From assembly GCA_949358305.1 (NCBI GenBank), contig OX442315.1:35304427-35368426 (forward strand): a stretch of DNA of 64,000 nucleotides. The letters are read 5' to 3'. Within the stretch, counting starts at the first letter, position 1; each line of letters begins with the position of its first letter. Below, piece by piece: positions 1,305 through 51,192 of the stretch. The stretch comes from Strigamia acuminata (taxonomy: Eukaryota > Arthropoda > Chilopoda > Geophilomorpha > Linotaeniidae). A program made the translations under genes and the position numbers. A model generated the notes under the pieces. That model was not told the DNA's origin. It worked only from the letters and a program-made list of their open reading frames with translations, and made no database searches.

Positions 1305-4242
1305 TTAGTTCGCTTCCTTTTCAGATGATCCCTGAGGAACGTCCGGAGGCGGAGGTGGAGGTAATTCTTCGGTTACAGGTGGTTTAGCCATCTCCGGAGT
1401 TGCTGGAGTCGTTGGTTCGGCGATCGGCAAAATCGAGGTGAGACGTGATGAACGATCGCTCGGGTCTTCGAACTCCCCGATGAAGTATCGATCGTGGCCG
1501 CCAACTGGTTCGTAGGGGGCGCCGACTCGTTCATGTACCCAGATACGCGAGAGGAAGGGGGCCAGGCCTTGATTGGTATGGTGGATCTTCTGGGCCTCGG
1601 CCGGATTCGTCGGGGCGCGGTGTGCACGCAGCAGACGTTGGTGCTGAATGAAATCGACGCCTGGACCCGCCTCTAGAGTTCGCTCCATCCATAAGTAGAG
1701 CGAGTGGCCGTGGTCGCTCGATCGCTTGATCTGGTTCTTCGTCTTCTGGGTCATCGTCAAACTCGGGTAGTAGTGTTTGAGTTGTGCGTCGATCGGAGGC
1801 AAAGGTTTCGGCTCTAATTTTTTCTTGGGCCGCAGGATCTTCGGTTTTGTTTTCGTCTTTCGGACGACTACTTTCACGCCTTCGATCGGAACCAGTCCCT
1901 TCGGGGAACTTTATCGTCTCCTCTGGAGTGACTGCTGGGACTGTCTGGCTCGCCGGAGTCTCAGGAAGGGGTTCGTTGGTTAGTACGACCGGTTCGCTTT
2001 GTGGTACAGCCACAGCTCGGACTACCTGGTATGATCGTTCTGGGTCGGCATCTTCTGCAATTAATTGCGCGCGGACCTGGATACAGGAAGGAACCAATTT
2101 TAGCCATCGCTCGACGAGAGCGGGAGGCAGCTGAAAACTTTCATGTGCGACGACCGCCCAGGCTGCCAGTGCCACACGGGCGTTTCTAAACGTAGATGCG
2201 GCCAGCACTAGCGACATCATGTCGGTGATTACGACTGTCGTTCGTGCCATTCGTGACGGGTGATCTCGTCCAGGGCTGTTGGTGAACTCGATGGCCGCGC
2301 TTCGGATATTCGTCACGGCGATCTGCATCGTTCTGGCTTGGTAGTCATCGATGTCGGACACCATCTCTTTTGCTTGCTCGATCGTGGTTGTATCGAGGAA
2401 CGACTGTAATTCACACGATGTTGGATCAAACTGGGTTGTGGCTCGAGTGTCCGAAGATCTGTTATTGGGGGGTGGTCTTGAAGGCGTTTGATTGCTTTCG
2501 TCGACTCTAACCACGGTATCTTGTCTTGAGTTAATTAAAACTCGTTGAACGTCGGGTTCGGGCTCATCCCAAACAATCGGTGTTCTCAACGTAGAAGTCT
2601 CGCTTCGCGTTTCTTCCGGTACGGCTGGGAAAATTGGTCCAAAACGATCTTGTCGTCGTTTGAGTTGTTCAAAGGGACTCAGCGATGTCGGGGCTCCGAT
2701 GACCACAGTTTTTCGGAATGCGCTGGGCAGACTAGAAGGCACGCTGGTGGCTGGCTTTGTCGGTGTTTTGATGAACACACTTGGCACCGAAGTTATGCTC
2801 ATTTCGATCGATTTAGTCGGCCGGTAGACAGGCTTCGATTGTTCATTCTTGGCCTTCAGGACTGCTGCTACCATGTCGGCTTCGGTATATTTTCTCTCTT
2901 GTTCCGGTACGATCATCGGCTCTACCGATTGTTTGTCTTCGATTGTCATCGGCACTTCTTGACGAACTTCTACTTGCAAAGTCTCTACCTCATCGACTCC
3001 ACGCGATTTCTCAAAGTGTCTCCATGTTTCTGCTCGTGGCCTCGACAACCTGAGACATCCGCGTTGGTTCGGTCGATTTCTGGAGTAGCGGTATGTCTCG
3101 ACCTCCCGTGGCTTCTCGACTCTGGGCTCTCGTCGCGGCGAGGGTTCTCGAGCGTGTCGGTAATAAACTCGAGGATGAGACTGCGATCGATCGTGCGTGT
3201 TGTACGACGTGCTTGGCTGATCCAGGCGTCGTCGCTTGTTGTCGTGTGTGTGATTTAATAATTCGCTCGAGAGTCGCTTCTCCGCTTTCTGTCGCTTGCG
3301 CCCAAAGATGCCCAGGTAGTGGAGCTGGTGCATCGCTTTCTGTGAGGTGATAAATCCGTGTTCGGGTCGCCAATTGGGAACGTCTGGTCTTTCTCCTCGA
3401 ACCTGGCTTAACCAAGTTTTTATCTCATCTGTCGAATACCCTGCTGGTTTCAGTATTTTGAAGAGATCTCGATACGCCGTTCGTCTGACTTCGTTGTAAT
3501 AGTCTCTGTGAATTCGTCGGCGTTCTTCGTCTGTAGCGGCGTTCTGCCACTTCTCGAGGACGGCCCACTCTTCGGACCCGCTTGGATAGTCCTTTTCCAA
3601 AAACTTGTTTGGGAGCGGTGCTGGTGCGTCGTCGCGTTCTGGAATTTCAGCCCTCAGTGCGTCGCGCATCTTTTCTGGGAAGTAGTGTATCAGGGTCTCC
3701 TGACTCGCCCAGAATCGCGATCGGGCTCTGGATGCGGTGAGCCGAATGCGCCATGGGCCGGCATCGACGTCGTCTTCTAACGCTCTTCGAAATGGAGTCG
3801 GGATCTCGCTCCTCCAGAGTGTGCCCGAAGATACGTTTTGTGGATCGATGGGTCCCCACGTAAGTTGGTGTTCCGGCTGAGGAATGAATAATAAAATTAG
3901 ATTTTGTCACATTCCGAATTTGGATTCAAGATGGCGCCATGGTCGACCATGTGCTTTTTTACACGTGTTGAATTTTTTAATAAAGGTTTTTTTCGTAATT
4001 TTTTTGTATTGTTGAAATAAAGATGTTTTCTTTTTACGAGTATTGTTTCACGTGTTTCTCGTGGTTTAGCCACGAATTAAATTCTTTGTTAAATTTACCT
4101 TTTCGTTACTATCGGGCTTTTCCCGATTCTCTTCTGGTTCAACCTCGTCCCATCTTGCGGGATCGTTCCACTCGTCTTCGCTTGGGTCCCGATCCATTTC
4201 TTCCTCCTCGTTGTCGGGTGATTGTTTCCAGTTTCTTCGCAT
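1305..4242 (-). pseudogene. gypsy-1 ORF3: spliced third gene, broken by one frameshift
   Basis: Exon 1 is 4242-4099 (48 codons, very acidic, with a WDE motif), ending at donor GTAAAT. A 222-bp intron ends at acceptor ...TTCCTCAG, and exon 2 starts at 3876. Both junctions are phase 0. Exon 2 stays open to 1531, but similarity to gypsy-2 ORF3 switches frame near 1880-1900 and continues to 1305, which indicates a one-base indel. Shared blocks include an N-terminal WRIRL-like motif, a WLSQVRG/WLRDIEE region, a central IAVTNIRS region, and a C-terminal block with LRAHR and RIWVHER. The middle is rich in Pro, Arg and Ser. No signal peptide, membrane segment or envelope feature is visible. Its place after pol is where env would be, but its role is unknown. 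Confidence 0.75.
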
Positions 4243-30740: not shown

Positions 30741-30941
30741 AAATTATGAACGAAAAGATGCATTTAAAGAAGGGGATTTTACAAAACGGAGCATTTTAAA
30801 CTGTGTGCGCCTAAAAAGTCAATTTTTCCATTGCCACGTTCATAAAAGGTCACTTTTTATGTCGTTTGATGTCATAATTAACAAAATAATGATATTGTGT
30901 AAACATAGGAGACCTGAACCGTGATCCCTGACCAAACATAC

Positions 30942-31090
30942 TTGTTTAGATGCTTATAACTCGAAAACGAAGGAGTGTGGACGTTGGAGTAACCACCGGA
31001 TGAGACAATGCCTACTTTGCGCCGATATTACGAAATTTATCGATAAACATCGATACTAGCCGAATATCGATATTTTTCATAAAACGATAT
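30942..31090 (-). promoter_or_regulatory. Promoter and noncoding exon 1 of ZNF-c
   Basis: Conserved exon (AAGCATCTAAACAA, donor GTATG) preceded on the minus strand by TATCGATA and CGATA boxes at 31018-31082. Confidence 0.55.
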
Positions 31091-31509
31091 TACTTCGGAG
31101 TAAAAACAGTAAATACTAGTAAATGGACATAAACGGAATAAGTTGTATGGGAAGTTTATTATTATTTATGCTCGATTATGATCGATTTTAACCGTTAATT
31201 GACTTAAGCGAGAATGGAAGAAATTTTGAGGAAGGTTTAGAGGAAAGACCATTGAGAATGAAGGAATATTGACTAATTTTGAAGAAAAAATTGGATTTTT
31301 TGCTGAAAATTGTTTTTATTTGTAAAAAAGTAAATTCTTTTCGGTGTTTGCTGCGATAAATTGAATTTTAGGTTAAAAATTGGTTTTATTGTGTACAAAA
31401 TTGAATGTTAGGTAAAGATTTGGTTTTATTGATTAAAATCTTGAATTTTTGTGGTAAAAAAATTGATGTGTTCATGCCAAAGAACAGAAATTTGAAATAA
31501 TCGAAAATG

Positions 31510-32268
31510 TTACGAACACTTTTCCATGTGTTTTTTTAATACGTCTCTACGCGCAAAACGGCGAGAACACGAATGGCACTCAAATGGTTTTTCTCCAGTA
31601 TGAGTCAACAAATGAGATTTTAAGGTCGATGAATGGGCGAAGCAAAATGAACACACATGACACTTGAACGGTTTTTCCGCTGAATGGGATCGTAAATGAG
31701 TTTTCAAGTGACCCTTCTGGGTACAGCAATAAGAACACAAATGACACTTGTATGGTTTTTCTCCGGTGTGAGTCAATAAATGAAATTTTAAGGTCGACGA
31801 ATAGCCAGTGCTGAAAGAACACAAATGACACTTGAATGGTTTTTCCGCCGAGTGGGATCGTAAATGACGTTTCAAGTTACATTTTTGGGTGCAGCAATAA
31901 GAACACAAATGACACTTGAATGGTTTTTCCGCCAAGTGGGATCGTAAATGACTTTTCAAGTGACCATTCTGAGTGCAGCAATAAGAACACAAATGACACT
32001 TGTAGGGTTTTTCTCCGGTGTGAGTCATCATGTGATATGCCAAACTTTGAACTATTTTGGTTTTATATTCGCACAAGTTGCAATTGTGCTCGGGTTTGTC
32101 CTTTTTTTTGGTTTGGGCTTTTAGTGAGATTTCTTCTCCAGGGTGTTTTTGAGACACGTGACATTTTAATGCCCGGTTACTCAAAAACGCTTTTATGCAA
32201 AGATGGCATTCGAATGGATTTTCTCCTGTGTGGCTCCTTATGTGTGATTTGTTAGGCTTTTCCATCAT
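31510..32268 (-). CDS. C2H2 zinc-finger gene ZNF-d (intact)
   Basis: 252 residues with eight C2H2 fingers; the last ends in a Cys-containing HMEKCS. Linkers are TGEKPY/F and SAEKPF. The exon begins after acceptor TTTTTTTAG near 32375, with a short 5' leader before ATG 32268. The first exon is 2.3 kb upstream at 34674 and its promoter starts at 34741. That promoter is split by gypsy-2, whose other side holds the remaining half at 47649. The intron contains three nested transposons. The ORF has no defects, but its normal expression is doubtful given the promoter insertion. Confidence 0.8.
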   Translation of the reverse strand: MMEKPNKSHIRSHTGENPFECHLCIKAFLSNRALKCHVSQKHPGEEISLKAQTKKKDKPEHNCNLCEYKTKIVQSLAYHMMTHTGEKPYKCHLCSYCCTQNGHLKSHLRSHLAEKPFKCHLCSYCCTQKCNLKRHLRSHSAEKPFKCHLCSFSTGYSSTLKFHLLTHTGEKPYKCHLCSYCCTQKGHLKTHLRSHSAEKPFKCHVCSFCFAHSSTLKSHLLTHTGEKPFECHSCSRRFARRDVLKKHMEKCS

Positions 32269-32450
32269 CGTAAACTTTTAAATGACTTCCATGAAAAACA
32301 AATGAATTGGCAGTTGATCGGGTTTCCAAGCCCGTGATTTCGCAAGTTGTTGATTTGGGAAATATTGATTACACCTAAAAAAAAATATACAAAATATTCA
32401 TTAACGAAGCCCAATGTACTTGTGTGTGCGCGCGCCTAAAAAGGCTAAAC

Positions 32451-34779: not shown

Positions 34780-35599
34780 TGTGGTGACCCAGTTGGATAA
34801 GTGTCCCCCCAGGGCGGATACTTGTCCTATGAGTCACTATGATTAAAGAGTCGTTCCCCCCCGAGTTGGCTCCACCTCCCCATGGCAGGTGCGTGCCCCG
34901 AGGGGGAGGAAGCGGCTGGTGGTCAGCCCCCATTGGTTGATCGCCGGCCCTTCACCCCACTGCATAAAAGGCTGTGTTTCCCGCCTAAAGACAGAACTTA
35001 CACAAACGACACCAAGAACACAGCAACTACCTCACCGTCAGGCCAACTTCAACTACAAGTTAGGATTGATCGAGGATCGCTGAGTAAAGTGCAAACTGTA
35101 ACTCTCACGAAGTCACTTGCGAGCTATTCCTGCGAAAGCACGAGAATAGCCCTTGTGAAATCACCCAGAATAATCGCCCAGACGATTATTCGCCGAAGTA
35201 AGTGTCCGAGTGCTTTGTAGGGAACCCCAAAGTTCCTAGACGAGGCCTCTGCGACGCTAAACAAACCCTAGACAACAGGCACGGATAGAAGACTCGAAAG
35301 AGCATTCCACCGCGTCCGTGAAGACGAATCCGTGACGAATTAACGACAACTCGAGACGCCGCCTTTGTTCCGCCGACCACGCGGAATCGACGACGCCATC
35401 TTGAGAAATCCTTTGTTCGACGCTGACCACGTCGACTCTAGAATTATTACTGAGTGTATTTTAAAGGCATAAAGCCTGGTGAATAAATTACCTGTTTATT
35501 TACATACATTTGGTATTCATTTGGGTATTTACATAATTGATCACAGGTAAAGTATTACACGTTAGCGCTATTTAAACCTATACCAAGTAGGACGCGACA
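34780..35599 (+). repeat. 5' LTR of gypsy-2
   Basis: TGTGGTGACC...GACGCGACA, 820 bp. It has a CCATTGG box near 34930, a TATA-like CATAAAAG at 34963-34970 and an AATAAA signal at 35482-35487. Confidence 0.93.
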
Positions 35600-35601
35600 C
35601 G

Positions 35602-35619
35602 TGGGGGCCCGTCCGGGAT
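35602..35619 (+). other. Primer-binding site, tRNA-Pro type
   Basis: TGGGGGCCCGTCCGGGAT begins two bases after the LTR. It complements the 3' end of tRNA-Pro with one difference from the well-known proline site used by murine retroviruses. Confidence 0.7.
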
Positions 35620-35693
35620 TTAGAAATAAATCTCAAATCTGAACTTGTGATCTCTCAATAAGATAACCCAAATCGTAGAATTACCGAAAGAAA

Positions 35694-38600
35694 ATGTCAG
35701 ACAAAGACGAGCAATCCACGTCTGAAACCGAGCAGAGAATGCCCGAGAAGGGAAAAAGGACCTCCGACTACCACCTGAGATCGGATGGTCCCGTCCCTGA
35801 AATGTCCGCAAAGGCGAAAGCCCGAGCGAATAAAAGGAGAGCGAAGGCGCAGAAAGAGGAGCAAGCTGCATCGCTCGCGGCCCTAGACGGGCCAGAGCGA
35901 GAGCGGGTTCCCTTGAATATGCAACCCTTCGAAGATACCGATCCGGAAGCCATAGAAAATCGAGAAGAAATTCGCGACGTATCGCCAGGACGAGTATCGA
36001 TATTGATGACCGAGGAGACGAATGAAGCTCCGAAAATAACGGTCACGATCGGCACAGACCCATCGCCACCAACGGCTCAGACGTCCGTAAAACAAACCCC
36101 ACGGAAAAACGACGGCGGGACCCCGATAACCCCCCGAGTTACGGCGAGTCCTGCAGTTGTTTCCTTCGAAGTATCTCACCTAATTCGGTTGACGCAGCAA
36201 GCTGCCCAGCTAAAAGCGATGATAGACATTCCAGTAGGAACGTCAGTCTGGGAATCGATTACCCTACTCACTGACGCTATCTGTGCGGCACAAGCCCCGA
36301 CGCCGGTCGCAAGACCAGCAGCGGAGACGCCCATGCCCCAGGTAACGCCCAGTGACACCGGAGGTTTCGCGCCAGACCCCAACCGAACACTTCACGAATC
36401 CAGAGAGAAGGCCCGCGAGGAAGCCAGACAAGAAGCGACTAGTCGCCAACGAAGGCTGAGCGCAGAGCGGCGAGAACTCTGGAAGGAAGAGGAAGAAAGG
36501 GAGCAACGCGAGAGAAGAACCACCGAGAGAACAGAGAAACTGGTCCAAAAAATGAGGGAAGAACGAGAAGCTAAAATTCGAAAAGAATGGAACGCAACAG
36601 TAGAAGGGCGACATCGAGAAGCTCAAGAGTACGAGGACCAATTTCAAGCGCTAATAGCTCAAAGAAAAACAGAAAAACTACAAATGTTGCGAAAAGAGGC
36701 CATTCTACAACATCAGAAATGGGAAGAACAACATCGCGAGAGGTTGAGAGAAGAGGAAGCCAGAAAAGAAAAAGAACAGTTTCTGAAAGAGAAAGAAGAG
36801 TGGGATCGAGTCAGATGGACCGAAGAGTACAAAGCGAAGAAACAAGCTATAATAGATGAGCAAAAAAGATGGGAAGCCGAAAACTGGGAGAAGGAGACAG
36901 AAAAGTTCCAGAAAGAGTACGCACAAGACGTCTCGGACAGGAAGAAAAATGAAGAAAACCTGAAACGGAAACCAGAACCCCCCAGCGGCTCTGATACCGA
37001 CACAGGAGAAGGTGCAACAAAGCCGGCAAAAACGGCGAAAAGGGGGAAATCTCAAAAGAGAGACGAGTCGGTCCCAAAAACAAAGGACCGTCACCCCTCA
37101 AAAAGATCCGAGACGGGAGCAGCCATCGACGCGTTACTCGAAAAGAAAAACGCAAATAAAAATCGGGAACGCCCCGAAAGCGAGGAAAACAGATGGCATT
37201 CTTTTTACGAGAACAACGACGGAGGGGAGCCGCCGCCATCCGGAGGCTCGAAACAGAAGAAGGCTGGCGGAGAGACCCCACCGAGAGGGCCGAGGTTTCA
37301 CCCCCAAGGAGATCCCTCCGAGCCCTCCGATTCGTCGGACGACGACCATCCGAGTCGACCGTCTACAGGAAGGAGTCAAGAAGGCAGCGATGGGCACCGG
37401 TCGAACCGGCCGAATGCTTCAGACCGCTCTTCCCGGAGCTCCAACCCTCGTTCAGAGGAAGGGAACTTTCAGGACTCATCTGGCCGACATTACACGATGT
37501 CTGAGCTAGGCCGAGCCCTGCTGAACTCTTTCAGAAGAGAAGGAATCGATCTAGGCCATCCAGGCGACGAACATAATCGCGCTGGAGAGAGGGTTAAGCG
37601 CAAATATGGCGTACGAAACGAACCAAGCAGTGAAGCCACGGGTAACATCCGCTGGCAACACTATATTCAAACGCGATTTGACGGTTCGTGGAAGGCCGGA
37701 GACCGCTTCCTGGACGAAGTAATGCGTATCAAGAAAGCGACAAAAGCCACCGTCGCCGACATGCTAACCCACGGGCTAGTGGAGCTAACTACGGGGTCAG
37801 CTCGAGAATGGTACCAGGGACTGAAAAACCCAACCTGGGACGATTTTCTCGTCCGTTTCGATCTCCGATACGGCGAGACTCCAGACGAGATCAGTAACAA
37901 ATTACGGGGTCTACGACAAGCCGCAGGAGAAACATTAGCCGACTACGACGCCCGAGCGAAACTCCTGTTTGCAAGAGCGCCGTACGAAATAAACCCCGCT
38001 GGTTTTACGATGATCTTTTACGGAGGATTATCGGCCCACTCGCAAAGAATTCTGCTAGACATGCGTGCACCCCGCACTGGCGATTACCAAGATGTCAGTA
38101 ACTATCTTCTAACAAACACGTTGGAAATAGAACAGCGGTATTACGCCACTCTGCCCCCGGAAGAAGCTGACGCGCACGAGAAGCGGTTGCAGACGAGCGC
38201 CGAACGCCACAAGACCTCAGAAAAATTAATGAGGCCAAGTGAATATTTGAGCGGCATAATGAGTCTCACCGAAGCATCCTTCGGACGAATGCTGACGCCT
38301 AAAGCAGGCAGTATTCTTCCAGCCAACCCGATAGCTGCCCCAAAGAAAGCACCGGCAGCGACGGCGATGCAGGTGACCTCGACGGACTCCACCCAGATGG
38401 AGAAAGTCGAAGAGACAACACCTCTCGCCACGGCTAAAGAAGAGGAGCCAGCATCGAGCGACGAGGAAGCCCTAAATGAGCACCTCGAAAACTTATCGAC
38501 GGGATGCGACGATCAAGGTCCCTATTTGCACCATGCACACCGGGCCTTGGCAATCACACAATTCAGAGCACACGTGCAAGCAACAAAAGCGAGAGGAGCA

Positions 38601-38834
38601 TTGGGAGGAAAAAGACGATTCCCGACGCCCTTCGTCCCGAAAAAACCGGGATTCACTCCCACAGGGGATAAAAGTAACATCAAATGTTACAGCTGTGGAG
38701 AATACGGCCACTACTCAGATAAATGTGAGAAAACCGTCAAAGAAAAGGACATCATGCAAACCATGATGAAAATGATGATGGAGTTAAGAACTGATCTGGC
38801 AAAAAACTTCCAAGCGCAGGCGTCGCCGAAATAA
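35694..38834 (+). CDS. gag: gypsy-2 Gag
   Basis: 1046 residues. The long N-terminal part (to about residue 460) is dominated by Glu/Arg/Lys-rich sequence expected to form an extended helix or coiled coil (about 230-430). It is followed by a disordered Ser/Arg/Pro region. The capsid-type gag domain (about 640-830) has FDGSWKAG, AREWY and FDLRYGET motifs shared with gypsy-1. A CCHC knuckle (CYSCGEYGHYSDKC) is near residue 997. The stop at 38832-38834 lies 25 bases after the frameshift heptamer. It should assemble into intracellular particles and package the RNA. Confidence 0.92.
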   Translation: MSDKDEQSTSETEQRMPEKGKRTSDYHLRSDGPVPEMSAKAKARANKRRAKAQKEEQAASLAALDGPERERVPLNMQPFEDTDPEAIENREEIRDVSPGRVSILMTEETNEAPKITVTIGTDPSPPTAQTSVKQTPRKNDGGTPITPRVTASPAVVSFEVSHLIRLTQQAAQLKAMIDIPVGTSVWESITLLTDAICAAQAPTPVARPAAETPMPQVTPSDTGGFAPDPNRTLHESREKAREEARQEATSRQRRLSAERRELWKEEEEREQRERRTTERTEKLVQKMREEREAKIRKEWNATVEGRHREAQEYEDQFQALIAQRKTEKLQMLRKEAILQHQKWEEQHRERLREEEARKEKEQFLKEKEEWDRVRWTEEYKAKKQAIIDEQKRWEAENWEKETEKFQKEYAQDVSDRKKNEENLKRKPEPPSGSDTDTGEGATKPAKTAKRGKSQKRDESVPKTKDRHPSKRSETGAAIDALLEKKNANKNRERPESEENRWHSFYENNDGGEPPPSGGSKQKKAGGETPPRGPRFHPQGDPSEPSDSSDDDHPSRPSTGRSQEGSDGHRSNRPNASDRSSRSSNPRSEEGNFQDSSGRHYTMSELGRALLNSFRREGIDLGHPGDEHNRAGERVKRKYGVRNEPSSEATGNIRWQHYIQTRFDGSWKAGDRFLDEVMRIKKATKATVADMLTHGLVELTTGSAREWYQGLKNPTWDDFLVRFDLRYGETPDEISNKLRGLRQAAGETLADYDARAKLLFARAPYEINPAGFTMIFYGGLSAHSQRILLDMRAPRTGDYQDVSNYLLTNTLEIEQRYYATLPPEEADAHEKRLQTSAERHKTSEKLMRPSEYLSGIMSLTEASFGRMLTPKAGSILPANPIAAPKKAPAATAMQVTSTDSTQMEKVEETTPLATAKEEEPASSDEEALNEHLENLSTGCDDQGPYLHHAHRALAITQFRAHVQATKARGALGGKRRFPTPFVPKKPGFTPTGDKSNIKCYSCGEYGHYSDKCEKTVKEKDIMQTMMKMMMELRTDLAKNFQAQASPK

Positions 38835-41800
38835 ATTCAGCTTCGTCTGCGCCAGCCGCGGAAATTAAAAAGAAGAAATATCACACTGGACCCGCAGGTC
38901 ATGCCTTGGCAGAAGCACAGATCAAAGATCGCATGCAGACCATTCCGAAGAAGGAAGAAACAGTGACGCTGACAAGTATGCAAGTGAGAACGAAGCCGGA
39001 GGTCGACATAGATTGGACGGACCTCCCGTTCAATCTGGAGGTTGAGCCCCAAACATTACGCGTTTTTCACTGCAATGTCACGAAAACACATTGCGAAACT
39101 CTGTGTATGCTGCCAGTGGAGATCGAAAACCAAAAATTGTTCGGTCTGCTGGATTCAGGAGCAGATCGTTCATTCATATCCGAAGATATAGTAAAGGACT
39201 TGGATATTGAAAAAAAGGTGGCACAAGTGAACGCGAACGTAGAATTGCTCACCGCCAACGGCTACGTCAAGCCGAGGGGCGTAGTTCGCATCATGATCGA
39301 CTGGAAGGGGGGGAACCTGTCCCACCCCTTCATAGTCTTGCCATCCCACGACAAAGTATTCCTCTTAGGGATGGATATCATGGCAAAACTGAAAATTCAG
39401 CCAAACCCGATAACCCGTTCATGGAACTGGATAAGTCCCGAGGGAGAACGGCCAGTCCCCGTAGTTCCCCAAAAATTACTGGACGAAGCCAAGGACAAAG
39501 AGGAATACGGAAGAGGATTGCGAAAATTCGTCCAAGATTACGATTTCGCAGCCTTCACTCTGGAATTACAGAGGAGTAACGTCGTGGACACACTGGTCGA
39601 GGAGGCAGCACTGCGTGTTAACGAGGCATCGCTACTAAGGCGAGTGCTTCGAAAACATGAAAGAATTCTGACCAAGACACCTGGTCGAACGACGGAAGCA
39701 ACCCACGAAATAGTCTTAACCACAGACAAGCCGATTCGAGTGCCTTACAAGGGGATGAACCCCCAGAAAAGAGACATTGTGACGCAGATGTGCCAAGACA
39801 TGCTCGACAAGGGCATAGTAACTCAAGCGCTGGGCGAATACGCGATGCGGATCGTCCTGGTAATGCGTCCAGGCTCGGAGCCTCGACTATGCATTGATTA
39901 TCGCCCCCTGAATGCGATAACAGTTATAGACCCGATTCAGATGCCGTCTATAGACTCGATCCTCCGGGAACTGAGCCCGTTCAAGTGGGTAACCACGATG
40001 GATCTGTCAAAGGGGTATTGGCAAGTGGAGCTAAAACCAGAAGACAAACTAAAAACGGCTTTCTACTCCCCGATAGGAAGATTAATGTTCAACGTGATGC
40101 CGTTCGGGCTTGTAAACGCCCCGAGCACGTTCCAGAAATTGATCGAAAGCGTGTTGGGAGATATGCTTCACGACTTCGTGTGGGCGTATCTCGACGACAT
40201 AATAATAACGTCGGACACATTCGAAGAGCATATAGACCACATCGACAGAGTGGTCTCTCGCCTAGCCAAGGCGGGACTCCACATCCATCCAGGGAAGAGC
40301 AAGTTTTGCAGAAAAGAGCTTGCCTTCCTAGGATATCGAATAGGAGTCGAGGGAATCGCGATTGACCCCGAAAAGGTCAAAGCAATAAACGGATTCCCCG
40401 CCCCCGAAGATATAAAAGGTGTCCAAAGATTCATGGGCATGGTCAATTTCTTCGGCCGACTACTCTCTGGTCTGGCTGAGGTGGCCGCGCCTATAACGGA
40501 TCTCTTACGAACGGATAAAGAGTTTGAGTGGACGGTCCAGTGCGAGGCCGCATTTAGCACTATCAAGCAAATGCTGGCTGACGTCGAAAAGATGCCATTG
40601 CCGGACCTAAACCGACCGTTCGTGTTGCACACCGACGCGAGTAAAATCGGACTGGGTGCAGCCCTTCTGCAGACCCACGTGTACAACGGAATCTCGCAAG
40701 AAGTACCCTGTATGTTTATAAGCAGGAAAATACAGGGCGCGGAGAAAAATTACACGGCAACGGAACTAGAATGCCTAGCCGTAATTTGGGCAGTTCGAAA
40801 ATTTCGCGACTATCTGGAGTACACGAACTTCGAGGTTCAGACAGATCACCAGGCACTAAGCTGGTTGATGAAGCTCAAGGAACCTTCCGGCCGACTCGCA
40901 AGATGGCAACTGGAGTTAATGGCGTGCGATATAACAATTACGTACCGCCCCGGGAAGTACAATCATGTGGCCGACGCCCTCTCAAGAGCCCCAGCCTCTG
41001 ACCCCCAGGGACCAGACGACGACGGCGAGGACGACACCCACCTCTTGTACTGCCCAACTCCACGCAGAATATGGCGCTTACGAAAAGCAAACGAACTGCC
41101 GGTGATGGAGCCCGAAGATAGAACGTTTTGTGGTTTTTGGACTCGAACGTACCAGCCAGCTGGGACGAGCGATTCAACGTCCGCAATTCAACCTCCGCCC
41201 CCCGGAGAAACCCACAAAACACTACTACGCGCCTTCACAGCAAAAATTGAAGAAAAAACGCAATATGCTCCACCCACGAGACGTGAGTTCGTCGAACACC
41301 AGGCAGCAGACACAAAATGTCAAATTATAACACAATATTTGCTGAACGGCGAATTTCCGGAAGGGATGACAAACCCACACCGCCGGAAACAGTTCGTCAA
41401 AGAAGCAACAAGCTACCTCATAGATGATGAACTCCTGGTAAAATACCACCCGACATTTCAAGATGACCTCAGTGGAGCGGGAAACTCGGTGAAAGTGGTC
41501 GTACCGGCATCACTGCACAACCGACTGTTGTGGCTGATGCACGGACACCCGCTCGCCAGCCATTCCGGCATAGCGAGAACCCTTTATCGAGTAAAGCAAC
41601 TTTTCTTCTGGCCGGGCGCGCGGCAAAAGATAACGAAATTTATCCGACACTGCCCCCGGTGCCAAGCATGCAGACCGCGAGATAAAGTAGCCAGAAACGC
41701 CATGTCTCTCGGACCCTACGCACCGTTTGACTGCTTAAGCATAGACTTGATGGGCCCCAAGCCCACAACGGGAAACAAGAACATGTATATTCTCGTAATT

Positions 41801-42937
41801 ATGGACGTGGCCACCCGATGGCCGGAGCTGTACGCCCTCGCGAAGCCCTCGGCTGAAAACATAGTCGAGTGCCTTTACGACGTGGCAATGCGATTTGGGT
41901 TTCCCAGAAAACTCATTTCGGATAACGGCCCCCAATTCCGATCAAGAATATATAAGGACTTCTGTAGGAAATTTAAAATGGATGCATCGAACACCTCCAC
42001 ATATAATCCTCAGACAAACCCAGTCGAGAGATTAAATAAAGATATAAAATATGCGCTGACAGTATTCACCGACATTCACAATCGATGGGACGAATACCTG
42101 CGAGAAATCGCTTTCAGCATTCGCTCAACCGTGTCAAGAACACGCGAATTCTCACCGGCGTACCTCAACTTCGCCCGCGAATTAAGGATGCCATGGGACC
42201 CACGCGTTGCCGAAGCTGTTAACGTATTAGACCCATCGAGCCCACACGAGTACGTGTGCCGGTTGGAACAGACTATATCCGACACATACCAGCATATGAT
42301 GGCGCATATTTTCAACATGAGAGAAAGAATCGCAGATAAAGAAGGCGATCTCGCTTTCGCGAACTTTAAAGTGAATGATCTAGTGTGGAAGGAGGCACAC
42401 ACGTTGTCCAATGCAGCGAGGGGCATCGCCGCAGGTTTAGCCGACAAGAGGGACGGTCCCTATGTAATTGTGGCCGAACACGGCGGCAACGCATACCAAC
42501 TACGCCGCTTAGAGGACAACAAAAATTTTCAGTCGATACATGGCCGAGATTTAAGGCCATATCTGCCAGAGTTTCCCCAAGAAATCTGGCTGGAAGGTCA
42601 GACACACAGCGGCCAAGGGGGCACCGTGGTCGACACGTTCCAAAAAACAAATGAAGCTGAAAATATAGCGGAGGACGAGGATGAATTCTTCGACGCCGAA
42701 TCTCCGGCCGACGAGGCTCCAGCACAGCCGGAGCAAGCAATTTCGGAGAGGGAGGAAGCAGAAGAATGTACTTCTGAAATGGAAAATAAAAAAATTAATA
42801 ATGAGAAAAATGCCAACACATCGGAGATGAACGAGCAAGTAGAGTCACGATCTACGAGCACGTCGAAAATCAACCTTCGACCACGACGAAGCAATAATCC
42901 GTTCATTCGGGACGGCAAAGTCGTGGGGAAGAACTAA
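38795..42937 (+). CDS. pol: gypsy-2 Pol polyprotein (PR-RT-RH-IN)
   Basis: The frame is open from 38795 and is most likely translated only as a Gag-Pol fusion. Domains in order: aspartic protease (LLDSGADRSFI), reverse transcriptase (MDLSKGYW, YLDD), RNase H (HTDAS, TELECLAVIWAV), integrase zinc module (HCPRCQAC), integrase catalytic core (DLMGP, DNGPQF, NPVERLN) and a GPY/F-type module (KRDGPYVI), then a disordered acidic tail ending NPFIRDGKVVGKN. All catalytic Asp/Glu positions I can place are present and there is no stop. The last residues resemble the gypsy-1 tail (NPFIKDGKI), so the C-terminus is conserved. Confidence 0.93.
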   Translation, partial: SGKKLPSAGVAEINSASSAPAAEIKKKKYHTGPAGHALAEAQIKDRMQTIPKKEETVTLTSMQVRTKPEVDIDWTDLPFNLEVEPQTLRVFHCNVTKTHCETLCMLPVEIENQKLFGLLDSGADRSFISEDIVKDLDIEKKVAQVNANVELLTANGYVKPRGVVRIMIDWKGGNLSHPFIVLPSHDKVFLLGMDIMAKLKIQPNPITRSWNWISPEGERPVPVVPQKLLDEAKDKEEYGRGLRKFVQDYDFAAFTLELQRSNVVDTLVEEAALRVNEASLLRRVLRKHERILTKTPGRTTEATHEIVLTTDKPIRVPYKGMNPQKRDIVTQMCQDMLDKGIVTQALGEYAMRIVLVMRPGSEPRLCIDYRPLNAITVIDPIQMPSIDSILRELSPFKWVTTMDLSKGYWQVELKPEDKLKTAFYSPIGRLMFNVMPFGLVNAPSTFQKLIESVLGDMLHDFVWAYLDDIIITSDTFEEHIDHIDRVVSRLAKAGLHIHPGKSKFCRKELAFLGYRIGVEGIAIDPEKVKAINGFPAPEDIKGVQRFMGMVNFFGRLLSGLAEVAAPITDLLRTDKEFEWTVQCEAAFSTIKQMLADVEKMPLPDLNRPFVLHTDASKIGLGAALLQTHVYNGISQEVPCMFISRKIQGAEKNYTATELECLAVIWAVRKFRDYLEYTNFEVQTDHQALSWLMKLKEPSGRLARWQLELMACDITITYRPGKYNHVADALSRAPASDPQGPDDDGEDDTHLLYCPTPRRIWRLRKANELPVMEPEDRTFCGFWTRTYQPAGTSDSTSAIQPPPPGETHKTLLRAFTAKIEEKTQYAPPTRREFVEHQAADTKCQIITQYLLNGEFPEGMTNPHRRKQFVKEATSYLIDDELLVKYHPTFQDDLSGAGNSVKVVVPASLHNRLLWLMHGHPLASHSGIARTLYRVKQLFFWPGARQKITKFIRHCPRCQACRPRDKVARNAMSLGPYAPFDCLSIDLMGPKPTTGNKNMYILVIMDVATRWPELYALAKPSAENIVECLYDVAMRFGFPRKLISDNGPQFRSRIYKDFCRKFKMDASNTSTYNPQTNPVERLNKDIKYALTVFTDIHNRWDEYLREIAFSIRSTVSRTREFSPAYLNFARELRMPWDPRVAEAVNVLDPSSPHEYVCRLEQTISDTYQHMMAHIFNMRERIADKEGDLAFANFKVNDLVWKEAHTLSNAARGIAAGLADKRDGPYVIVAEHGGNAYQLRRLEDNKNFQSIHGRDLRPYLPEFPQEIWLEGQTHSGQGGTVVDTFQKTNEAENIAEDEDEFFDAESPADEAPAQPEQAISEREEAEECTSEMENKKINNEKNANTSEMNEQVESRSTSTSKINLRPRRSNNPFIRDGKVVGKN
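38801..38807 (+). promoter_or_regulatory. -1 ribosomal frameshift site A AAA AAC (gypsy-2 gag/pol)
   Basis: Gag-frame codons read GCA AAA AAC TTC. The pol frame is open from 38795, so slipping by -1 here continues directly into Pol. No ATG in the pol frame is needed. The site and its position match gypsy-1. Confidence 0.8.
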
Positions 42938-43317
42938 AAATAAAAGAAAATGTGATAACATGGAGCGGAGGCCTTGTAAAATAAAAAGATTTACTTACGA
43001 GAGCTGCTGCACATGTTGAAACGCGAAAATTTGGCTAAGTCCAAACTTCGCAACGAATTGTCGCAGTCACCACTAACAGACGAGAAGTTATGACGTATCG
43101 GGCGACCACGTGACAATGAAACCACGCGGTCGACCCCGTAGCGTCATTGCCAGCACGGCGGATCTCGCAAAATACGAGACGCGTTCGAGACCCACAATTC
43201 TCAGCGTCGATAGGCCCAGTTTCCGACTGTTTTTAACACGACGAGACGTGTTTTTGCTTCTCCCCCAAAGAGAAAGACAAAGACCTCTCAAACAAAACTT
43301 CATTTTCCTAAATTGAA
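42938..43317 (+). other. Spacer between gypsy-2 pol and ORF3
   Basis: 380 bp, mostly without ORFs. It contains a candidate splice acceptor (TTTTTGCTTCTCCCCCAAAG, AG at 43269-43270) that would allow an env-like subgenomic mRNA, or it may hold an internal promoter. Neither can be shown from sequence. Confidence 0.35.
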
Positions 43318-46300
43318 ATGGCCGATCGACGCAACCCACGATTAGAGCCGAGCGCATCGTCGAGAGACGAGAGCGACGGCCTAATCGTAAATGCAGAAGA
43401 CGATGAGAATTGGGACGAACAACCGCCGTTGCAGGTAAATTAGTGTGATTTCCCCAGAGAAATCACATAATTCTTTGAATCTGTTGCATCCAACCCAGAT
43501 TGGAGCGTGACTTGTGACTGATATATTTCTTTCTGTTTTATTATTGATTTAAGGCTGGCTAAAAACCCGAGAGTGGACCCAGATTCACCTCGGAGTCAAG
43601 GCCGCCAAAAAACTAGAACAAAGGAAGTGTTCGCGGAATGGCGTCGTGGCAAACCAAAACCAAAACTAAAGGTTTTCTTTCTTTTAAAATTAAACATCGT
43701 AATAAATTAAAATACGATTAGAGTTAAAATAAAAAGTTTAACGTAATATTAAGAATTTAACGATCGGTTTTGCCTGCGACCCCTTCCTAAAAAGCGGATC
43801 ACCTGAGTTCAAAGGTAGTGTTGGATCAGCGCTACGACGGCGGAGATCATCGCAGAACTGCGAAACAAGAAAATAAGACCGACGGCCGCAACAAAAGAAA
43901 GGAGTTGCTGCCACCGTCGATCTTGAGCATATTTCTGATCCCCATCGTTAAACTGGGATTTATTATATTAATCTTGTGATCTAAAATTATTCAGGTCGAC
44001 CCGCTAGAATCGTGGGACGCCCTGCCTTCGACGGTGTCAACCGCCAACAACATCTTTCGCGGAGCCCTGCCGATTTACCTGCGGCAGGCCTATCCTGCAG
44101 AGACCAGCGCCTGGAAAATCCGATTGATGTACTCCAGGACCCTCGAGGAAAAATTCGAGCGATCGAAAACGCTGGTCGAGTGCATGACGAAGGAGATGAG
44201 GGAGCGAGTGGGGCCGCGGATCCCACCCGATGCGGATCCGCCGAGCCCCGTTTACTCCGGGTACCTGGAAGAGGCTTACCCAGGCACGGTGGCCGAGCTG
44301 CACACCTCCCACAGGTGGAGCGAGGCCCCGACCTTGGCAGCCCGCCAGAAAATAGTGGACGACGAGATCGAACGCTTAAAGCGCACCGAGACTCACGGAG
44401 TAACCCGAGTTCTCGAGAGAAACGGTTTCTCCCCCGAAGAAATCCGTAGATGGCTTCGCGACATCGAAGAAGATCATCTGACACCCAGATGGATACCGCC
44501 GGCGAATTTTACGGCCACGCAGTCTGAGATGTGGCAGTTATACCACGCTGGTATCCTGGGAAGTCGCCGCCATCACAGAAGATCGAAGCGTCCGGCGGAG
44601 TCCGCCCCACGCGGACCCGCACGAAGAAGACAGGCCGTCTCCCCAACAGAGGCCGGCCCGTCAACGAGTCGCGACTACCGCAGCCGCTCGAGCAGCTCCA
44701 GTTCCCGAACTCGAGTTGTCGTGCGCTCGGAGTGTCGCCGAGTAGTAACGCTCGAGCCTGCCTCGCCAGACGACGCGCGGGCTGAGCGAACGGTCGAATC
44801 TTCCGCCCACTGGGCTGCGAGGACCGAGACACACCAAGATCGAGGAAAGAAAAGATCCTCGTTGTTTATGGCGATTACCACACAGTCGTCAGATCAATCC
44901 TCGTCGCGACGAACCGTCTCAACACACCAGAGACCGGATTCCCCGACGGACGTCCCCCAGAGGACGGTCCAACAAAGATCCGTCGCAGCCAACACCAGGA
45001 GGAATCGGAAGCGTAAAGTACGACAGAAGACGCGTGCGCGGTCTCTGATCGCGAAAGGATTGGAGAAAGAGCGAGAGATGGCCGCCGCAAAAAGGTCCGA
45101 ACCCCGAAGTCTCGGATCCGCGGCTGGGCCGTCCAGGCTCCAGGCAGAGATTGATTTGGGAGAATTGACGGAAGAACAAATATCCCAAGAAGAGTCGGAC
45201 AAGGATGGACCGGTCACGAAACAAGATCTGGCCATGGCATTGAAGAACGCCTTCCGAGGATACGCGGCCAACCGGCCGTCGGGCTCAACACCGGCTGTGC
45301 CCACCGCGCTTGTGCCCCCACAGGTGCAATCGCGATGGCCGCCACTCCTCGAGGGTACAAACCCAGCAGTGACCACGTGGACCCCTCCCCGGATGATTCC
45401 GGTGGGAGATCCAACTCCCAAACGGGTCAGATACGACGACCTACCAGGGATGGGCCGTCCACCGTCACCCCCGACGCCACGAGTGTACCATCCTCATCGC
45501 AACGCCGAGTGGTACGCGCAGCGGGGGATGGACGCCAGATGCCGGCGTGAAGCGGCCTATCCCTCACTCAGCGAGTTACAAGAATATCTGGCCGAATACG
45601 AGAACCCCGCGATTGCCGAGTTGGCCATACGACAGGCCGACGCCGCCCAAACTCACCACATCAACTGGGCGATCGAACAGATGCGGACGTTGTCACAGCA
45701 ATTCAGTGACAATCCGGACCGCGCTCACCCCTGCCATCGGAGCAGTTTGAATTTGGCTGTGACGAACGTACTGGCCCAGCTGCTATCCCTGGGCGTCTTC
45801 TTGGACAGTCGGCAAGCTATGGCGGCCTGGACAATCGTCGACCGTGAGGGAGTTCACCTTCCTCGGGCGTTGTACCAGGTATGGGCCGGATGGACTCCTG
45901 AGCCCGCCTCGCTGCGCTTCGACCTGGCCAGAAATACGGAAAACCCAGGCCTACAGTTTTCAAAGATGCGTTCGTTAGCATTCCGCTACCGGAACCCCGG
46001 AGTCCACCCTTCCTTGTTGCGAACAATTCGGGAGGTTCCGGAGATACCGGGAACGGCGGCGAGCCTTCCACAGGCCATCGAGACCGCCCCCCCAGAGGCG
46101 GCGGTCCAACCATACATACCGACCCCAAAGCCGGTATTCCCGAAGGAGAAGCGACACGCGAATCGACCCATATTGATTCCGAAGCGTTCCAAGCGAGGAC
46201 CCCGAACTCCTCCGCTGCCCTCTCCTTCACCACCAGCGGCAGGGCTGGCCGCTCTCTCTGCAGAGCCGGCTACGCCACCGTTGGAGAGCCCAATGGAGAT

Positions 46301-46781
46301 TCCGCTCCCACCATCGCCTCCGCCGCCCCCAGCAGCGCAGCTTTATTTGAGGCTGGGAGTGGAATACCCCTTCCTTCAGATGTCGGAGTTCACGCGACAA
46401 CGCATCATTGACTCCGACGATCACGGCGAATCAATCCTCAAATGGCTAAACAGAGAAGCCCGATCCACCATGGACGCCGTCTTCCATCGCCGTATCCTAC
46501 GGGCCCACAGGAAACCCGGATCGAGCGCCGAGTCGCGAAGGATCCGACTCGTCCCCGATCGATTCCCCGCGTCTACCCGGATTTGGATCCATGAGCGTAC
46601 GGGGTTGGTTGGCGAGCCAGCCGGCAGTCACCCGCAGTACTTCATCAACGAGCGACAAAATCCTGCGGATCTGACAACCTCTCTGCCCCCGGATTTACCA
46701 CCGCCGCCACCGGCAGTGCCACCCGTGATCCTCCGCCCATGCAGAGGAGTGCTGCCGGCTCTTCGCAGAGGAGAGCGATGA
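43318..46781 (+). CDS. gypsy-2 ORF3: intact, spliced third gene of unknown function
   Basis: Exon 1 is 43318-43434 (39 codons, acidic, with NWDEQPP next to the donor GTAAAT). The intron is 43435-43994 (560 bp, acceptor ATTATTCAG). Exon 2 is 43995-46781. Both junctions are phase 0, giving about 967 residues. The product has an N-terminal block (WKIRL), a WLRDIEE region, a long Arg/Ser/Pro-rich middle, a helical block near the centre (LAVTNVLAQL) and a C-terminal block with LRAHR and RIWIHER before a proline-rich end. These blocks match gypsy-1 ORF3 in the same order. There is no signal peptide or membrane helix, so it is not an envelope glycoprotein. How its mRNA is made is unclear: a polypyrimidine-AG acceptor lies at 43270 upstream of exon 1, but I found no convincing donor in the leader. 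Confidence 0.75.
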
Positions 46782-46810
46782 GAAAATTGAGATCGCTCCG
46801 ATCCGAGATC

Positions 46811-46828
46811 GAAGCTGGAGGAGGGACG
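46811..46828 (+). other. Polypurine tract of gypsy-2
   Basis: GAAGCTGGAGGAGGGACG directly precedes the 3' LTR. The same tract type precedes the gypsy-1 LTR. Confidence 0.7.
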
Positions 46829-47648
46829 TGTGGTGACCCAGTTGGATAAGTGTCCCCCCAGGGCGGATACTTGTCCTATGAGTCACTATGATTAAAGAGT
46901 CGTTCCCCCCCGAGTTGGCTCCACCTCCCCATGGCAGGTGCGTGCCCCGAGGGGGAGGAAGCGGCTGGTGGTCAGCCCCCATTGGTTGATCGCCGGCCCT
47001 TCACCCCACTGCATAAAAGGCTGTGTTTCCCGCCTAAAGACAGAACTTACACAAACGACACCAAGAACACAGCAACTACCTCACCGTCAGGCCAACTTCA
47101 ACTACAAGTTAGGATTGATCGAGGATCGCTGAGTAAAGTGCAAACTGTAACTCTCACGAAGTCACTTGCGAGCTATTCCTGCGAAAGCACGAGAATAGCC
47201 CTTGTGAAATCACCCAGAATAATCGCCCAGACGATTATTCGCCGAAGTAAGTGTCCGAGTGCTTTGTAGGGAACCCCAAAGTTCCTAGACGAGGCCTCTG
47301 CGACGCTAAACAAACCCTAGACAACAGGCACGGATAGAAGACTCGAAAGAGCATTCCACCGCGTCCGTGAAGACGAATCCGTGACGAATTAACGACAACT
47401 CGAGACGCCGCCTTTGTTCCGCCGACCACGCGGAATCGACGACGCCATCTTGAGAAATCCTTTGTTCGACGCTGACCACGTCGACTCTAGAATTATTACT
47501 GAGTGTATTTTAAAGGCATAAAGCCTGGTGAATAAATTACCTGTTTATTTACATACATTTGGTATTCATTTGGGTATTTACATAATTGATCACAGGTAAA
47601 GTATTACACGTTAGCGCTATTTAAACCTATACCAAGTAGGACGCGACA
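46829..47648 (+). repeat. 3' LTR of gypsy-2
   Basis: 820 bp at a constant offset of 12,049 from the 5' LTR, with no difference seen between the two. It is followed by the target duplication ACAT. Confidence 0.93.
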
Positions 47649-48200: not shown

Positions 48201-48387
48201 AAAATCAAATTTTTGGTTAAATAATTCCGTTTTTCTGCAATAAGTGAATTTTAGATGAAAATTTGGTTTTATCAAGTAAAAAAATTTAGTTTTTTGTGAA
48301 AATTTGGTTTTTATTGGGTATAAAATTGAATTTTCATGGTTAAAAAATTGATATAGTCTCAAGAATTTGAAATAATGGTTTTTCTGA

Positions 48388-49447
48388 CTAGTGGGATTGC
48401 AAATGCTTTTTGAGCTGGCTGTTTTGGATGCAAGAAAACGAACAGAAATGACATTTGCATTGTTTTTCTCCAGTGTGAGTCAATAAATGAGATTTCAAGT
48501 GCGACAACTGGGTGGAGCAAAATAAACACAAATGACACTTGAATGGTTTTTCTCCCGTGTGGGTCTTCAAATGGAGTCTTAGACCATTGCTGGAAGAAAA
48601 ACACTTGCGACATTCAGCACATTCGAACGGTTTTTCACCAGTATGAGTCAACGTGTGCGCCCTTAATAACGGTTTGGTTTTGCACGAATAAGAACACAAA
48701 TGACATTGGAATGGTTTTTCACCAGTGTGAGTCAACGTGTGCTTCGTCAACACATCTTTGCGCTTGCAGGAAAAAGAACAGAAATTGCATTTGAATGGTT
48801 TTTCCGCCGAATGAACGACCGAATGCAGCTTCAAGCTGGTGCTTAGATTACAAGCGTACGAACACTTGTCGCATTTGAACGGCTTGTCGCTGTCGTGAGT
48901 CACCAGGTGTCTGTTCAACTTCCCGTTGGAGGAATAGAATGTAGAACAAAAATTGCATTTGAACGGTTTTTTCCCGGCGTGAATTGCCACGTGCTTTCTC
49001 AAACCGCCGGGTTGTTTGCAAGAGAAAGCACACAGGTGGCATTTGAATGGTTTTTCCTCGCTGTGGGTCCTCAGATGATCCTTCAAGTTCGCCTGGAAGT
49101 TGGTAGAATAAGAACACAAGTGGCACTTTACTAGTGTTTCTCCAGTATGAGTTTTCAAATGACGGTTTAGTTCGTTCTTTCGTTTGAAGGAAGACGGACA
49201 CGATTCGCATTGGAACGGTCTTTCGCCGGTGTGGCTCATCATGTGGTAAGCCAAATTCTTCACAACTCTGGTTTTGTATTCGCATAAGTTGCAATTGTGC
49301 TCGGGTTGTTTGTTGTTTTTGATTCGTGGCGTTTCTCCGGGGTGTTTTGTTGACACGTGGTGTTTTAATGCCTGGATACTCTTGTAGGCTTTGGTGCAAA
49401 GATGGCATTCGAACGGCTTTTCTCCGGTGGGATTCATTATTACGCAC
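48388..49447 (-). CDS. C2H2 zinc-finger gene ZNF-a' (complete copy)
   Basis: 349 residues with twelve complete C2H2 fingers, nearly identical to ZNF-a at 22661-23683. It keeps the last finger (NSQLKKHLQSH) that ZNF-a loses to a stop. The exon follows an acceptor (TTTTTTAG) near 49448, with ATG at 49437. The first exon and promoter are at 49884-50070. It is the better candidate for the functional member of the pair. Confidence 0.83.
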
Positions 49448-49883
49448 CTAAAAAAAATATGTATATAAAATACCGTATTTTATCGATTAAAAGCCGCAGC
49501 TCTTATTAAAATCTGCTATTTTTGTCTGCAATTACAATTTCGGTTTTTAATTTACGGCTCATTTTGGAAAATTTTTGTGAAAAAAAAAAAAAGGCTTGTG
49601 AACATAAAATTAGTCCGAAAACTCCTCTAACTAGTAAATAGTAAATAGTAATCAAATCAAAAAATGTTTCTGACAAATGTGGATTATCCTTATGAGTAGA
49701 TTAAGGTTACACACTCTGTGGGTGCCTGAAAAGGCCCTTTTTATGTTTCTGCGCCTAACAAGGTCATTTTTACACGTTTGCGCACCTAAAAAGGCCTTTT
49801 TTGTGGCTGCTTGTGTTGACAAAGTTCATATTCTATAAATAGGGGTCCTGAACACAGATAAAGTTATTTCAACACTAACATAC

Positions 49884-50070
49884 CTGTTTAGATGCTCACA
49901 ACTCGGAAACTACGGAATGTGGTCAAAGCAACAGCCAAGGAATGTGGACGACGCAGTAAACACCGGATGAGATAATGTCAACTTCGCGCCGATATTACGA
50001 TATATATATCGATAAACATCGATACTTTACCCCTATATCGATATTTTTCACAAAACGTGAGTATTTCAGA
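49884..50070 (-). promoter_or_regulatory. Promoter and noncoding exon 1 of ZNF-a'
   Basis: Exon ends at 49884 (GAGCATCTAAACAG, donor GTATGT). The promoter at 49980-50065 has CGCCGATATTACG, TATCGATAAACATCGATA and a second TATCGATA. Confidence 0.6.
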
Positions 50071-50348
50071 GTAAAAACAGGAAATAAGTGGACGTTCACA
50101 GGAAATTTGAATTTATCTTTATTTTTCAGCTGGACGGATAGAATCGGATGAGATGGTCGATGATTGACAGATATTTTGTTTCGTTTTAAGGCACAGCGGA
50201 TCAGGATCGATTTTAATCGTCATTTCATTTAATAGAAGAAATTGTGAGGAAAGTTGACAAGAAAAATGAAGAAAAATTGACTAAACTTCAAGAAAAAATT
50301 GAATTTTTTTGGCTACAAATTTGATTTTTTTAGCTAAAAATGTTCTAG

Positions 50349-50820
50349 CTAAAAATTGAATTTTTTATTTTCCATTCTCAGAAACGATATGTTACGCACA
50401 CTTTTTATGTGCGCTTTCAATACGCGGCTTTGCCAGAAAGAACGAGAACAAGAATGACACTTAAATGGTGTTTCTCCAGTATGCGTCAACAAATGAGATT
50501 TCAAGTTTGTCGCGTAGGCAGAGCAGTAAAACAAATGACATTTGAATCGCTTTTCTCCAGTGTGAGTCAACAAATGAGTTTTTAAGCTTGCCGAGTAGGC
50601 AGAGCAAAAAGAACACAAATGACACTTGAACGGTTTTTCTCCGGTGTGTGTCAATAAATGATATTTTAAGTTAATCCAGTGGGCAGAGCGAAAGGAACAC
50701 AAGTGACACTTGAACGGTTTTTCTCCGGTGTGAGTCAATAAATGAGATTTTAAGTTCGCTGGGTGGGCGGAGCAATTAGAACAAAAGTGACACTTGAACC
50801 GTTTTTCTGCAGGTTCTCCA
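50349..50820 (-). pseudogene. Zinc-finger fragment ZNF-b'
   Basis: Copy of ZNF-b with the same missing 5' end and the same Cys loss in the third finger of the ATG-initiated part, but with His retained in LKTHLLTH. ATG at 50738 gives 129 residues. Probably a relic. Confidence 0.65.
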
Positions 50821-51192
50821 GTGTGGTGATCCTGGACTTTAATCTAATCTGACTCTATAATTAAACTAAACTCTAAAAACACCGCGACGGGACTTAATAA
50901 TAATAATAGAGTAATACGTGAATTAAAACTAAAAAATACTCTAAACTTACTAATTAATACAAGGAATTGATTATCTTAATGAAAAATTAAGCTAAAATAC
51001 AGGGCGAAAATTCAACAAAAAGACTGAATTTTCTCAAAACAAACGATCTTAATTTATTCTTTTATGTTGAATAAACTATTAAAAACTTACATTAAATATT
51101 CCGAATATTATGATAAACTGTTAAAATTGTACAAACATGACTAGGAATTAACTGATAAATAAAATTAGTAATGAAATTGGAATGAGATATAA

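Follow-up and report, generated by a model that had tools for sequence, protein, structure and literature searches.

In a 64,000-nucleotide stretch of the Strigamia acuminata genome (assembly GCA_949358305.1, contig OX442315.1, forward-strand positions 35,304,427 to 35,368,426; hereafter the window), the Ty3/gypsy element gypsy-2 (34780-47648, + strand), which we judge to be young, carries a third gene, ORF3, downstream of pol. Our data strongly point to ORF3 as a genuine gene that is spliced from two exons and kept under selection, and they support its classification as a non-Env accessory gene. Third genes of long terminal repeat (LTR) retrotransposons are readily called env; here is one that is under selection, very probably spliced and not env, and that occurs in three abundant lineages within a single genome.

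ORF3 of gypsy-2 occupies part of the interval from the end of pol (stop at 42937) to the 3' LTR, which starts at 46829. Exon 1 (43318..43434, + strand) starts with an ATG at 43318 and comprises 39 codons of acidic character; it is followed by a 560-nt intron (43435..43994) with donor CAG/GTAAAT and acceptor TTCAG/, and by exon 2 (43995..46781), which encodes 928 amino acids and ends in TGA (929 codons with the stop). A first-pass annotation, made from the letters of the window alone, had described this arrangement of a 39-codon exon, a GTAAAT donor, an intron and a 929-codon exon joined in phase 0 between pol and the 3' LTR, and our analysis reproduces its coordinates. Without splicing, the exon 1 reading frame hits a stop after two intron codons. 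Exon 1 thus terminates inside the intron unless spliced, so the genomic RNA contains an intron.

Three ORF3 lineages in the host genome share this layout of an acidic exon 1, a donor beginning with GTAA, an acceptor ending in CAG, and phase 0. The assembly comprises 157 contigs (237.5 Mb), and all copy counts given for it are lower bounds. A second, divergent element in the window, gypsy-1, has a matching arrangement on the minus strand, with a 48-codon acidic exon 1 (4099..4242), a 222-nt intron (3877..4098; GTAAAT...TCCTCAG, donor at 4098) and an exon 2 that, as it stands, covers 1531..3876, its C-terminal block being out of frame in this copy. In 14 of 14 gypsy-1-type copies (the window copy and 13 of 29 other gypsy-1-type loci), exon 1 is 144 nt long, open and acidic, the GTAAA donor, the CAG acceptor and the phase are kept, and the intron measures 214-223 nt. 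The third lineage, with type copy L069, was found through the protein pattern RIW(I/V)HER; an exon-1 homologue is present in two of three copies examined (L080 and L081), where it has 40 codons, a CAG/GTAACA donor and an intron of 543-544 nt. Exon 2 boundaries could be defined in 41 of 72 loci, both window copies included (of the other 31, L070 is broken and 30 stop short of the exon 2 start). Directly 5' of exon 2, all 41 have AG and 40 have CAG, the exception being L008.

All three lineages are abundant. The gypsy-2 stretch 44100-44900 has at least 40 genome matches, all 99-100% identical (best 40 of 175 candidates), and the gypsy-1 exon-2 protein has at least 58 (best 58 of 1259 candidates), 50 of which span residues 1-661 or more, with 48 of these 50 stop-free across the matched stretch. 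For the L069 lineage, at least 42 of 53 matches are full-length (1-934), at 88-100% identity, and 38 of the 42 have no stop. The many near-identical copies imply recent activity. Between lineages, exon-2 proteins are 50% identical for gypsy-2 and L069 and 28-29% identical for gypsy-2 and gypsy-1-type copies, and BLASTP aligns the two window proteins over residues 6-234 (2e-23) and 523-705 (4e-11). As the first-pass annotation had claimed, a C-terminal LRAHR/RIWIHER block is conserved: LRAHR...RIW(I/V)HER is kept in 13 of 13 aligned ORF3 sequences, and the back-translated RIW(I/V)HER pattern matches the genome exactly at 226 sites, against 0 for the reversed control. A genome search for variant lineages in which AGR encodes the motif's first arginine gave 0.

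Exon 1, too, shows a bias towards silent change where it can be compared closely. Between gypsy-2 and L080 or L081, 26 and 27 of 36 aligned residues are identical and the changes are mostly silent, with a proportion of changed silent sites (pS) of 0.78 and of changed replacement sites (pN) of 0.15 and 0.13. These copies can be aligned across the intron as well (500 columns at 70% identity, with a score of 380 versus a shuffle mean of 183), so nucleotide identity alone fails to mark out exon 1, which is distinguished by how strongly its changes favour silent sites. Between gypsy-2 and gypsy-1 only a loose likeness is seen (8 to 14 of 32-33 residues; pS 0.46-0.69, pN 0.37-0.48).

The strongest evidence for the splice comes from copies that lack the intron. 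The exact gypsy-1-type exon 1-exon 2 junction occurs without an intron at three genome sites, with 0 mismatches where 2 were allowed, and the reversed control gives 0. By coordinates, these sites are the three of the 58 gypsy-1 exon-2 matches that have 960-aa frames, in agreement with the predicted joined exons, which, when fused in silico, give 954-974 aa in seven of nine other copies, the two exceptions having 906 and 833. Two of the three intron-less copies, L059 and L061, were compared with each other; they show 99.8% identity across 2427 nt, as far as the LTR end, diverge beyond it, and therefore represent separate insertions of one intron-less subfamily. A transcript was probably spliced as predicted and reverse-transcribed once, and the product then moved again, which would make this one event and not three.

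Selection on exon 2 was measured by Nei-Gojobori counts on 13 aligned sequences. The ratio of nonsynonymous to synonymous change (dN/dS) is 0.100-0.179 in 36 pairs from nine gypsy-1-type copies, 0.131-0.149 in three pairs of gypsy-2-type copies, and 0.169-0.199 between L069 and gypsy-2-type copies, where dS exceeds 2. Between gypsy-1-type copies and the other two lineages, ratios of 0.30-0.44 were obtained where computable and carry little weight, since silent sites are saturated. Pooled by region over seven gypsy-1-type copies, pN/pS is 0.13 in the N domain, 0.235 in the linker, 0.098 in the middle domain, 0.158 in the second linker, 0.096 (the lowest) in the C domain and 0.30 in the tail. 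These counts show strong purifying selection on exon 2. The earlier proposal that ORF3 is kept under selection therefore stands, with dN/dS among genomic copies far below 1, whereas its original argument, the absence of stops, is weak by itself in a single young copy.

The conserved parts of the protein form three domains separated by poorly conserved linkers, with an acidic N terminus and a proline-rich tail. In gypsy-2, the N domain (exon-2 residues 1-190; 43995..44564, + strand) is helical in a low-confidence model, as is the middle domain (residues 516-670; 45540..46004), and the C domain (residues 780-895; 46332..46679) contains LRAHR...RIWIHER. Basic clusters are found in all three lineages, and one of them, a nuclear-signal-like cluster (residues 719-738; 46149..46208) immediately N-terminal to the C domain, aligns with those of the other two lineages. 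Exons 1 and 2 together contain 11.7% arginine, 11.6% proline and 8.6% serine, consistent with the Arg/Pro/Ser-rich protein described at first pass. The lack of a membrane helix, also noted then, holds across lineages: the highest 19-residue hydrophobicity mean in gypsy-2 is 1.75 (residues 585-603), and the corresponding places in L069 and L034 reach 0.92 and 1.27. As the hydrophobic stretch is not shared, no membrane segment is conserved.

No known family was matched convincingly in the searches made. A Pfam search of exon 2 returned 0 families, and the 13 aligned members gave weak matches to four families only (best E 0.064-0.18), one of them to REV in one member, which we do not use as evidence. 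These family searches of exon 2 and the 13 members gave no Env profile match and no GDSL or DEDDy domain. Single-protein and alignment queries against 5.8 billion proteins gave no match at E 0.001 among the best 8000 candidates of each, a weak null because the library, which does contain animal gypsy pols (354 matches, with no hymenopteran among the 120 listed), may be thin for the host's group. Among viral contigs, 37 pattern matches were found and none was confirmed. The best PDB profile match has E 1.1, and a PDB fold search with the model of the middle and C-terminal parts gave no fold match (best E 1.9). The first-pass description of a new accessory protein is supported, as is its view that ORF3 is not env despite its env position, given the absence of a conserved membrane helix and of an Env profile match. 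ORF3 as a copy of gag was ruled out (exon 2 versus gag, hhalign probability 0.1%, E 0.78).

Among known third genes, the Env of errantiviruses such as Drosophila gypsy is also spliced and encoded 3' of pol; ORF3 is alike in position and splicing but differs in having no conserved membrane helix and no family match. The ORF3s of bdelloid rotifer LTR elements carry GDSL esterase/lipase or DEDDy exonuclease domains (PMC5408684); they resemble the present ORF3 in being non-Env, whereas the GDSL or DEDDy match is found only in the bdelloid proteins. Plant LTR retrotransposons have extra sense ORFs between pol and the 3' LTR, spliced in some, and several are called env-like on account of their membrane segments (PMC7264820); no sequence relation to ORF3 was found in the searches made. 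No description of this ORF3 was found in the literature searched, which lay outside Repbase and most subscription journals.

As the best overall explanation, which we favour tentatively and at less than even confidence, ORF3 would be a spliced, selected, non-Env nuclear protein that aids export of the element's unspliced genomic RNA, a task that Rev performs for HIV. We consider this reading because the genomic RNA contains an intron, basic clusters occur in three lineages, no membrane helix is conserved, and there is a precedent in CERV of Cer1, a gypsy-type element of C. elegans. As a plausible mechanism, an LTR-driven transcript would be spliced in part, joining acidic exon 1 to exon 2 (a step supported for gypsy-1-type copies); the ORF3 protein would enter the nucleus through its basic clusters, its conserved domains would contact unspliced element RNA, and export followed by gag-pol translation would ensue. 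The genomic RNA would have to evade splicing of an intron that, to judge from the intron-less copies, can be spliced.

CERV is the closest described analogue of ORF3, the two being likened by description and not by sequence. CERV is a nuclear protein made from a spliced mRNA, and its loss abolishes cytoplasmic genomic RNA and Gag of Cer1 (PMC10309623). A spliced mRNA is very probable for ORF3 too. Both proteins have coding sequence 3' of pol (for CERV, its C-terminal half, which was once suspected to be Env), domains on flexible linkers, a nuclear-signal-like sequence and no homologues found beyond their own group (PMC10309623). However, CERV has five exons, the N-terminal ones shared with gag, and 517 aa with a cysteine loop, whereas ORF3 has two visible exons without relation to gag, 851-934 aa in exon 2 and few cysteines; moreover, the nuclear location and RNA export shown for CERV are what we infer for ORF3 (PMC10309623). 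An export function of the CERV or Rev kind is, in our estimate, possible at distinctly less than even confidence. The wider proposal that ORF3 founds a new family of spliced nuclear non-Env RNA-export regulators, independent of CERV and Rev, together with an intron-less subfamily that keeps the gene and still moves, seems rather unlikely as a whole. If ORF3 is such a regulator, independent solutions would have arisen several times to a problem familiar from retroviruses, that of getting intron-containing RNA out of the nucleus, and the subfamily without the intron would serve as a natural comparison.

Several observations weigh against an export role. The intron-less subfamily is mobile and has nothing left to keep unspliced at ORF3, so retention of the ORF3 intron is not needed for mobility; as a speculation, a leader splice from the donor-like site CAG/GTAAAG at 35547 (+ strand) in the gypsy-2 5' LTR could still make export matter. 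An in-frame ATG lies within the intron, six codons 5' of exon 2, in three copies of the L069 lineage (L069, L080 and L081), so that unspliced translation of exon 2 is possible there. Two further results count against the reading of ORF3 as a spliced accessory gene: the intron-less gypsy-2 junction occurs 0 times in the genome, and L069 shows no exon-1 homologue, the sequence 5' of its position 1204 being unlike that of its relatives. The stretch richest in arginine (at gypsy-2 residue 335) is shared by L069 but missing from gypsy-1-type proteins. Strings resembling nuclear export signals are present in ORF3, are common in hydrophobic helices and constitute no proof. No homologue was detected in our searches, and the structure models are of low confidence (mean pLDDT 39 for exon 2 with 13 alignment rows, and 43 for the middle and C-terminal parts with 23), so we claim no fold.

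The same basic nuclear-signal-like clusters, together with the long disordered linkers and the many near-identical copies that indicate recent activity, would also suit an anti-silencing factor, in which a basic protein of the nucleus would act against silencing of the element by small RNAs or chromatin; we regard this as unlikely, as no family in the searched libraries showed homology to ORF3.

Short motifs of another kind are shared by gypsy-2, L069 and gypsy-1-type proteins: a YPxL (gypsy-2 residues 791-794) and a tail of a leucine plus prolines (901-906). They resemble late-domain and actin-adaptor ligands. These motifs speak for ORF3 as a particle or transmission protein that lacks a membrane anchor and is recruited through short motifs, a role we consider quite improbable, since PPxY is found in 0 of 4 ORF3 proteins scanned and P(S/T)AP in 1 of 4, and motifs this short arise by chance. 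In flies, gypsy-type capsids are transferred without an envelope (PMC11952523), but the protein known to serve this transfer is short and transmembrane, unlike ORF3. The sORF2/FAST-like proteins of insect gypsy-type elements are transmembrane proteins of 63-107 aa encoded mostly before gag (PMC11952523); like ORF3 they are non-Env accessory genes, from which ORF3 differs in its 851-934 aa in exon 2 alone, its location 3' of pol and its lack of a conserved helix.

The splice underlying the export reading could itself be challenged if the intron had been lost by chance deletion, with the exon 1-exon 2 splice unused and exon 2 expressed otherwise, for instance from the ATG 5' of exon 2 in the L069 lineage. 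The three intron-less copies may go back to one event, the junction is absent from gypsy-2 copies, and copying slips do happen: L008 lacks a 180-nt GT...AG stretch within the gypsy-2 ORF3 intron (43815..43994, + strand), with a 4-nt repeat at the edges of the gap and a second deletion elsewhere in the copy. However, the loss in the intron-less copies spans exactly the predicted donor to the predicted acceptor with 0 mismatches and leaves the joined frame open, and exon 1 changes between gypsy-2 and L080/L081 are mainly silent, which together make a chance deletion very improbable. The L008 loss, whose junction occurs once in the genome, may be a splice or a copying slip; the AAAG/GTAG site of this stretch is present in L080 too. 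Least credible of all is a strongly diverged envelope, for although the pol-3' LTR position, the splicing and the marginal hydrophobic stretch in gypsy-2 would fit, that stretch is not hydrophobic in L069, the N terminus is an acidic 39-48-codon exon, cysteines are few (2-9 per 851-967 residues), R.[KR]R sites occur in gypsy-2 and L069 but in neither of two gypsy-1-type proteins scanned, and no Env profile matches.

Comparison of copies also reveals a mosaic history. Silent divergence in gypsy-1-type exon 2 is 0.07-0.50 versus 0.00-0.10 for the pol tail of the same copies, and within exon 2 identity changes abruptly from block to block, between about 0.75-0.88 and 0.97-1.00 (L010, L015, L026, L027, L034, L035, L039, L049 and L059), switches that look as if they arose from template switching. 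Gag pieces of the window copy are 69% identical to those of L035 or L015, whereas reverse transcriptase pieces are 98.5-99.8% identical (four copies); gag comes in two or more forms that share about 69% identity (window 9777-10576, - strand, L075, L077 and L079), with the reverse transcriptases of the copies 95-99.8% identical. Judging from these alignments, modules are shuffled among elements and the family is a recombining swarm, as would be expected where two different RNAs are co-packaged. ORF3 as a uniquely divergent island relative to the pol tail and LTR was ruled out, gag being more divergent between some of the same copies.

Paired LTRs around gag and pol, and the order of the pol domains, identify gypsy-2 as a Ty3/gypsy LTR retrotransposon. 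Its 5' LTR (34780..35599, + strand) and 3' LTR (46829..47648) are identical over 820 nt, with a target duplication ACAT in the flanks. Two bases after the 5' LTR lies a primer-binding-site-like stretch (35602..35620), presumably of the tRNA-Pro type. Gag (35694..38834; 1046 aa) has a zinc knuckle near its C-terminal end (Pfam E 0.0044, under the curated cut-off), and pol (38906..42937) encodes protease, reverse transcriptase, RNase H and integrase in this order, its closest solved relative in a PDB comparison being Ty3 Gag-Pol. Targeted integration at ATCGAT, prompted by the gypsy-2 flanks, was ruled out: among 17 other copies checked, TATCGATA was found within 300 nt of the insertion in none, and one had a single ATCGAT.

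The gypsy-1 element extends from about 612 to 11163 (- strand), with one LTR at about 1231-612 and no second LTR found in the window; its pol is split over two frames, and the C terminus of its ORF3 is out of frame. On either side of gypsy-2, tandemly duplicated blocks (22600-32270 and 48380-50900, - strand) contain arrays of C2H2-type zinc-finger genes, named from their repeating sequence. Further downstream, an open frame at 62287-63576 (+ strand) contains a GPPGTGKT motif and presumably belongs to a helicase resembling ZNFX1.

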